DNA from: Agrococcus carbonis
Lineage (GTDB): Bacteria; Actinomycetota; Actinomycetes; Actinomycetales; Microbacteriaceae
Length of the DNA stretch: 64,000 nt
NCBI RefSeq assembly: GCF_900104705.1
Contig: NZ_LT629734.1
Location: 1,426,001 to 1,490,000 of the forward strand
Direction: 5' to 3'
Both the position numbers and the translations under genes were made by a program. Below are positions 43,004 through 43,758 of this stretch, piece after piece (within the stretch, counting starts at the first letter, position 1; each line of letters begins with the position of its first letter). The notes beneath the pieces are model-generated. The model was not told the DNA's origin. It did not search any database and saw nothing but the letters and a program-made list of their open reading frames with translations.

Positions 43004-43096
43004 GTTCGCTCCTGCCGTTGGGTTGCCAGCGATGCTGGCCGGGTCGTGCCCCACGATACCCACGGCCGCCCCCTCCATGCTCAGAGGTTGCCCAGG

Positions 43097-43122
43097 GTGC
43101 GGGCGGCCGCGGCCGCCCGCAC
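43097..43122 (-). terminator. Perfect 26-nt palindrome after the Cys-rich peptide gene
   Basis: GTGCGGGCGGCCG and its exact complement form a 13-bp-arm palindrome 10 nt after the TAG of the 19-residue ORF, well placed as its terminator. Confidence 0.7.
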
Positions 43123-43131
43123 CGGCGGTCG

Positions 43132-43191
43132 CTAGCAGCAGCCGTCGCCGCAGCACTCTCCGCGGACCTCGAGCTCGATGTCGCCGTCCAT
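43132..43191 (-). CDS. 19-residue Cys-rich peptide divergent from ArsR
   Basis: The ORF reads MDGDIELEVRGECCGDGCC and stops at TAG. A textbook ribosome binding site, AGGAGG, lies 6 nt before the ATG, and a perfect palindrome follows 10 nt after the stop. Four Cys occur as CC-GDG-CC at the C-terminus, a soft-metal thiolate site. It is transcribed away from the ArsR gene and shares its 75-bp operator region. No family is known to me. It may be a metal-binding peptide or chaperone; a leader-peptide role cannot be ruled out. Confidence 0.7.
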   Translation of the reverse strand: MDGDIELEVRGECCGDGCC

Positions 43192-43208
43192 GGTGCACCT
43201 CCTCTCGT

Positions 43209-43250
43209 ATCGATGTCGATCAATGTGTATCACATAGACGGCCATCGATG
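43209..43250. promoter_or_regulatory. ArsR-type operator region
   Basis: A perfect inverted repeat ATGTG-TAT-CACAT (43223-43235) is flanked by direct repeats ATCGATG at 43209-43215 and 43244-43250. It lies between the divergent peptide gene and the ArsR gene, and the ArsR ribosome binding site (GAGAGGA) begins immediately beyond. It could control both transcripts. Confidence 0.65.
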
Positions 43251-43265
43251 TGAGAGGATGTGCGC

Positions 43266-43601
43266 ATGCGCACCACGGTCTGCTGCACGCCCGGAGAGCC
43301 CGCCCTCGAGCGCGAGGAGGCGGAGCGCATGGCGGCGCGCCTCAAGGCCGTCGCCGAGCCCAGCCGGCTGCGCATGCTCTCGATGCTCGCGGCAGCCGAT
43401 GGCGAGATCTGCGTGTGCGACCTCGCCGACGCGATCGAGGTGAGCCAGCCCACCGCATCCCACCACGCCAAGGTGCTCGTGAGCGCCGGCCTCGTCGAGC
43501 GCGAGCAGCGCGGCAAGTGGGCCTTCTACCGCGTCGTGCCGGGCGCGCTCGACGAGCTGGGCGCGCTGCTGCGCGTGCCCGCGACCGCGGTCGTCGAGTA
43601 G
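43266..43601 (+). CDS. ArsR/SmtB-family metal-responsive regulator
   Basis: 111 residues. The winged helix is EICVCDLADAIEVSQPTASHHAKVLVSAGLVEREQRGKWAFYRVV. The CVC pair of the alpha-3 helix is the classic As(III)/Sb(III) sensor. An additional CC pair in the N-terminus (TVCCTPGE) could complete a three- or four-thiolate site. ATG 43266 with GAGAGGA; a GTG at 43260 would add two residues. No arsenate reductase, Acr3 or ArsM gene is adjacent, so the regulon is unclear. Confidence 0.92.
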   Translation: MRTTVCCTPGEPALEREEAERMAARLKAVAEPSRLRMLSMLAAADGEICVCDLADAIEVSQPTASHHAKVLVSAGLVEREQRGKWAFYRVVPGALDELGALLRVPATAVVE

Positions 43602-43615
43602 GCACGCGACGGCTA

Positions 43616-43743
43616 GATCGAGACGAAGGATCTCGATACGCGGCCTGCGGCCGCTCCTCGATCACCGAGGGGACGGCCGCCGCGATCGCCGAGGCGACAG
43701 TCGCTCCTCGATCACCGAGGCGAGGTCCGCTCCTCGGTCACCG
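43616..43743. repeat. REP-like repeat cluster downstream of ArsR
   Basis: CGCTCCTCGATCACCGAGG occurs at 43652 and 43702 exactly, and a variant CGCTCCTCGGTCACCG at 43728. The first copy belongs to a longer element with ATCGAGAC...GATCTCGAT arms and a GCGGCC-TGC-GGCCGC hairpin. The arrangement resembles the elements at 51.8-52.1 kb (TCTCGA...stem...CTCGAYCACCGAGG). It separates convergent genes. Confidence 0.7.
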
Positions 43744-43758
43744 TGAGCGGCGCGGCCG

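Follow-up and report, generated by a model that had tools for sequence, protein, structure and literature searches.

Can an open reading frame (ORF) of only 19 residues be a gene, and what could its product do beside a repressor of the ArsR/SmtB family? The question is posed by a 64,000-nt stretch of the 2.77-Mb genome of Agrococcus carbonis (the window, hereafter). A sequence-only reading of the window had proposed that the ORF is a real gene, encoding a metal- or arsenic-inducible thiolate peptide. On the evidence considered here, the ORF is very probably a gene and its product is probably an arsenic-binding peptide.

The coding sequence (MDGDIELEVRGECCGDGCC; 43132..43191, minus strand, ATG to TAG) has a Shine-Dalgarno (SD) sequence, AGGAGG, 6 nt 5′ of its ATG (43198..43203, minus strand). 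Beyond the stop codon lies a perfect hairpin, its stem 12 bp long and its loop 4 nt (43096..43123, minus strand; -30.0 kcal/mol, z -3.35 vs. shuffles), a probable terminator. The signals that had been read at the locus, namely the SD, the stop, the perfect hairpin and the CCGDGCC tail, are thus all in place, except that the hairpin begins 8 nt 3′ of the stop and not 10. The tail contains the spacing CCx4C. In a second genome (G011), where the counterpart peptide is MDEQVLEEARKECCGDGCC, the ORF, an identical SD and the tail ECCGDGCC are all retained. Loss of the Cys pairs in relatives, which had been named as grounds for giving up the gene, therefore did not occur. The hairpins are stable in both genomes and differ in sequence.

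The peptide gene is divergent from arsR (43266..43601, or from a GTG at 43260; plus strand), whose product passes the cut-offs of NF033788, the metalloregulator ArsR/SmtB model, and of PF01022. The repressor has the Cys pairs ascribed to it earlier: Cys6-Cys7 at the N-terminus, and Cys49 and Cys51 in a CVCDL motif. The operator region predicted between the two starts proved to hold two imperfect palindromes, each with one mismatch to CATYRAYNNNNRTYRATG: site 1 (43233..43250; CATCGATGGCCGTCTATG on the minus strand) and site 2 (43208..43225; CATTGATCGACATCGATA on the minus strand), the latter directly 5′ of the peptide SD. Both are in the same place in G011. Two copies of the operator motif are found in all 33 loci where a peptide adjoins arsR (the window and G011 included). 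When the remaining 31 loci were shuffled, two copies arose once in 1,550 shuffles, it being understood that the motif was derived from the 33 loci themselves. A sigma-70-like promoter (TTGAC and a -10 element matching at least 4/6) occurs in 6/33 loci and is absent from the window and G011. Behind arsR, at 43653-43745, the window has three copies of GCTCCTCGATCACCGAG (one with 2 mismatches), where 0.12 would be expected in the window.

Does the arrangement recur? Matches to this ArsR were found in 57 of 60 genomes, and 30 loci were returned. In eight of these, a small ORF rich in Cys and preceded by an SD diverges from arsR: the window, G011 and six forms of 21-26 residues, such as MNADTTCIELGCPPELDQDCCAPGCC (L007 and L026, with ORFs of 59 and 67 aa, were left out of this count). 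With a peptide profile (E ≤ 0.1), matches came from 11 of the 24 genomes of the genus, 10 of them confirmed by context, the eleventh being G009 (E 0.039); the other 13 gave none. In one search for relatives, matches at E > 0.007 were left out by E-value, and a few of these were read.

The sequence-only reading had proposed a search of the Microbacteriaceae for small Cys-rich ORFs divergent from arsR genes, and such a search found them. An ArsR of this type is present in 244 of 398 genomes of the family (E ≤ 1e-20), and 135 loci were examined (the 30 returned by the search and 105 fetched). Under a strict rule (an SD, a length of 12-30 aa, no fewer than 4 Cys, a CC end before the stop, and a start 20-200 nt from arsR), a divergent peptide is present in 31/135 loci vs. 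1 of 13,500 dinucleotide shuffles. Since ORFs recur in the same slot so far above this background, and since the window ORF is kept in G011, the ORF is more than a chance occurrence. In 30 of the 31 loci, 78-96 nt separate the peptide start from the inferred start of arsR. Applied to the remainder of the 135 loci (1,103 kb, on both strands), the strict rule finds nine more ORFs, eight of them directly behind arsC. A looser scan finds a peptide of 9-27 residues, with at least 4 Cys and a Cys-Cys end, in 40/135 loci; two chance-looking rows (L152 and L228) are left out of this count, and L235 is also left out of the ORF rows. The shortest has 9 residues, MDECCEGCC (L172). By their labels, the 40 loci span 16 genera, and G196 adds a 17th.

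The surroundings of these peptides tie them to arsenic genes, which supports the sequence-only reading. In 23 of the 40 loci the peptide stands before arsC, the gene of arsenate reductase, and in nine after it, and eight have no arsC motif within 1.5 kb. Where arsC is within 450 nt, a peptide is present in 32/60 loci, and otherwise in 8/75 (Fisher p 1.1e-7); 28 of the 60 loci with arsC nearby carry none. The absence of ars effectors, which had seemed characteristic of the repressor at this locus, holds for the window, for G011 and for a minority of relatives but not for the 32 loci with arsC. In sum, that reading of a real gene with a plausible function is partly supported; it missed the wider context of ars genes. 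The DNA pattern of one peptide subtype, ELGCP, was found in eight stretches in 257 billion bases of species genomes: five in Agrococcus, two in Curtobacterium pusillum and one in Microbacterium. All eight adjoin arsR, and seven have an arsC motif next to them.

Some loci depart from the common layout. In G196 (L262, 5850-6330), the peptide, both operator-like sites and the hairpin are present; arsR was not found at its side, and behind the peptide is an apparent C-terminal remnant of arsC, by reading. In G018 (L079/L023), the arsR and arsC matches overlap head to head with no peptide between, as though a deletion had removed the starts of the two genes together with the peptide region. In L078, L164 and L267, the partner gene appears, by reading, to be of the aquaporin type and not arsC. 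Two genomes, G132 (L077 and L140) and G317 (L078 and L257), each have two different peptide genes in two arsR loci.

Outside the family, the arsR-adjacent slot holds a peptide in 0/32 loci. In 70 loci drawn from the class and the order (some in-family, and one genome, G041, drawn twice), the sole case is G041, where arsR, an aquaporin-type gene (by reading the translation) and a peptide, MSTGCCDDECCEDGQDCC, follow one another. The 30 class-draw loci gave a single, chance-looking row (L197), and L215 in the class and order draws also looked like chance. An ELGCP profile (A3) found none in 396 genomes of the order at E ≤ 0.01, an empty result that shows little; the profile is unfit for other subtypes. 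As to plasmids, tblastn with one peptide gave no match, and the peptide scan found 0/9 in named regions beside related ArsR genes.

What do the peptides have in common? The 49 distinct ones have 4-8 Cys each and, in total, 214 Asp and Glu against 7 Lys and Arg. The CC end was a search criterion, whereas acidity was outside the search rule. CCx4C is present in 34 of 40 distinct peptides (those of the 135-locus set with the window and G011) vs. 4.9 on average, and never more than 12, in 500 permutations, and near the peptide start in 19/40 vs. 0.9 by permutation; these excesses are not probabilities because the sequences are related. The Cys are spread along the whole peptide, often at residues 3-5. 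The subtypes align poorly, and the shared traits suggest that they form one group, the common descent of all being only putative.

Pooled over all codons, pN/pS is 0.29 in the LPDG subtype (7 sequences), 0.04 in MNEDC (3 sequences), and 0.57 and 0.44 in the 26-aa and 24-aa forms of ELGCP (4 and 3 sequences, respectively). For the window and G011, a pair of two sequences, it is 0.98 (1.14 outside Cys), and for eight ELGCP sequences over 21 codons 1.13 (1.32 outside Cys). Four 21-aa ELGCP sequences have zero silent differences and several non-silent ones. Selection on residues can thus be seen in some subtypes, and the DNA of ELGCP may be under some other influence. The 65 nt after the stop are folded (z < -1.5, simple shuffles) in 14 of the 23 loci where the peptide precedes arsC, in 7 of the 9 where it follows, and in 9 of 10 without arsC (the window and G011 included). 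The folded stretches fit terminators or partial terminators. In Bacillus CDB3, a hairpin between ars genes is described as lowering downstream expression (PMC4562236). It should be noted that in ELGCP loci (L011, L036, L068, L069, L072 and L262) the loop region GTGCACCAG of the hairpin after the peptide is repeated across several genera, a likeness that exceeds the needs of a plain terminator.

We think it likely that these ORFs represent an unannotated group of very small, acidic Cys-pair peptides, under ArsR control and As(III)-binding, in the arsenic-resistance loci of Microbacteriaceae. Directly observed are the ORF with its signals, the fact that it recurs, and its link to arsR and arsC; that it is translated and repressed by this ArsR, and that its product binds As(III) and serves in detoxification, we infer from them. 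As(III) or a related species, Sb(III) for instance, would enter the cell or arise from ArsC. On binding it, ArsR would come off both operator sites in the intergenic region. The peptide would then be produced, often from the first gene and often separated from arsC by a hairpin, and its Cys pairs would bind trivalent arsenic and either shield proteins from it or pass it on.

How does the window fit this picture? Its peptide has the marks of the mini-peptides: an SD, a length within 9-30 codons, at least 4 Cys, a CC end and a place beside arsR. In the ArsR tree, the window and G011 form a separate long branch, the tree having few columns and many open forks; the labels cluster on it, with 50/132 inner branches open and 8 label changes required. 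Because of this separate branch, the window is assigned to the group by its layout, its operator motif, its acidity and its Cys tail, which resembles CCGGTGCC and CCGGIGCC, tails located behind arsC in other genomes. In the window, G011 and G005, no arsC motif was found next to the peptide; hence arsC, the typical neighbor, is common in the group but not obligatory. The best reading of the window copy is a reduced, stand-alone form: arsR, the peptide and its own hairpin. Elsewhere in the window genome there is one good ArsC (G000:C1:2584805, 71% to the query) and a weak match. Neither ACR3 (TIGR00832) nor ArsB (PF02040) has a match in it, and the only MIP channel found adjoins a glycerol-kinase-like gene (by reading).

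Would the peptide act on its own, as a free buffer, or as the partner of a protein? In the latter case, it could be a thiol donor or acceptor for ArsC, or carry As(III) to ArsR. That arsC adjoins on either side in 32/40 loci, and that arsR belongs to the same cluster wherever the peptide is located (G196 excepted), would accord with a partner. Yet eight of the 40 loci are without an arsC motif nearby, and the peptides are too diverse to share an obvious docking face. We consider such a partnership unlikely.

The possibility of a cysteine-responsive leader is quite unlikely. Here the peptide itself would be inert: stalling of the ribosome at the terminal Cys codons would open the hairpin and allow expression of the next gene. 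The layout is suitable in 23/40 loci, where the Cys codons abut the stop and arsC comes next, and in 14 of these the stretch after the stop is folded. The silent sites of the ELGCP core are also unusually constant, and Cys-rich leader ORFs 5′ of cysteine genes have been proposed in mycobacteria (PMC4633059). But stalling requires neither the CCx4C spacing nor acidity, and the Cys are found throughout the peptide and not only at its end. Moreover, nine of the 40 peptides come after arsC and eight are without its motif, the window, G011 and G005 likewise; that peptides occur both before and after arsC speaks against a role as leader only. The retention in G196 of the peptide, its sites and its hairpin, with no arsR found and only an apparent tail of arsC, also favors the product over the leader. 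An added leader role may exist where arsC follows (23/40 loci).

Could arsenic not be the main ligand? Thiolates bind many metals, and with its high Cys content the peptide could be a miniature metallothionein for soft metals in general (Cd, Zn, Cu, Hg). The neighbors, however, are arsR with an N-terminal Cys pair, arsC or an aquaporin-type gene, and no copper or cadmium exporter was recognized by eye beside the peptide in the eight loci whose ORFs were listed. A general soft-metal role is therefore improbable. An equally improbable case is that the window peptide is a remnant in decay, with arsC and a portion of the peptide lost and only the tail surviving by chance. Its N-terminal half differs from that of G011 (pN/pS about 1), no arsC motif lies beside it, and it is 19 aa long, shorter than the 21-26 aa found in the other eight genomes of the genus that have a peptide. 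Against decay, both genomes retain an intact SD, the two operator-like sites, the tail and a stable hairpin even though the hairpin sequences differ, and like tails stand after arsC elsewhere. Two further candidates were dropped: a peptide fused to ArsC (the final 40 residues of the ArsC sequences examined, two of them fragments, contain no Cys) and a RiPP precursor (no maturase recognized by eye in the loci read).

We thus prefer the arsenic-binding peptide under ArsR control. The broader claim, that the ars operons of a bacterial family hide genetically encoded arsenic-sequestering peptides of down to 9 residues, we regard as evenly balanced. If it is true, arsR and a peptide could make up a pump-free arsenic defense where no ACR3 or ArsB is found, as in the window genome. 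The peptides are tiny, diverse and natural candidate ligands of As(III), and related species offer a clean genetic comparison: arsR with a peptide before, after or without arsC. Gene finders usually report ORFs much longer than these, and such a group would have been missed because of its small size.

Comparison with known families and systems places the peptides apart. Two relatives of 24-26 aa have no Pfam match at E ≤ 1 and no match to an NCBIfam model. In the PDB, one peptide found only plant amylase-inhibitor and minicollagen look-alikes (E 0.075-0.64) and the second found none; in Rfam, the single match was far below its cut-off. No title or abstract among the open-access matches listed describes such peptides, subscription papers and preprints being largely outside that coverage. 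The bacterial metallothioneins SmtA, BmtA and MymT are reportedly also small, Cys-rich and metal-induced, some of them beside ArsR/SmtB-type repressors. Known bacterial metallothioneins have about 50 residues or more and another Cys spacing, whereas the present peptides are about half that length or less, are acidic, end in Cys-Cys and have arsC nearby.

The mycobacterial leader ORFs are also actinobacterial and very short, with terminal Cys codons, and stand at the heads of operons (PMC4633059). They precede cysteine-metabolic or hypothetical genes, in contrast to the peptides, which are tied to arsR and arsC, have Cys throughout, and can follow arsC or stand without it. An attenuator leader has its regulated gene directly downstream; arsC stands there in 23/40 loci, and no arsC motif follows the peptide of the window. 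Among repressors, the nearest model is CgArsR, whose site is given as Cys15, Cys16 and Cys55 (PMC11868830). The window ArsR likewise has an N-terminal Cys pair and Cys in CVCDL, a likeness of motifs, and As(III) is its putative ligand. In the ArsR of G011, a close relative, WC replaces CC at the N-terminus; the single Cys left there puts its As(III) site in doubt.

ArsD, an arsenic metallochaperone, also bears comparison. In the R773 protein, the As(III) site consists of Cys12, Cys13 and Cys18, and there are C-terminal Cys pairs at 112-113 and 119-120 (PMC4562236 and PMC12607644). Like ArsD, the peptides are encoded in ars loci and mostly have the CCx4C spacing; we draw an analogy and claim no homology. 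ArsD has about 120 residues and is folded, whereas the peptides have 9-27, and that of the window, with 19, is too short for such a fold. ArsD (PF06953) has no match in 60/60 genomes (it has one in 1 of 14 control genomes), and its role may therefore be vacant there. No gene for sequestration has so far been found in an ars operon, according to one account (PMC12093948). If our reading is correct, these peptides would be such genes, the first of an ars operon to serve intracellular sequestration, and a minimal counterpart of ArsD and of the phytochelatins.
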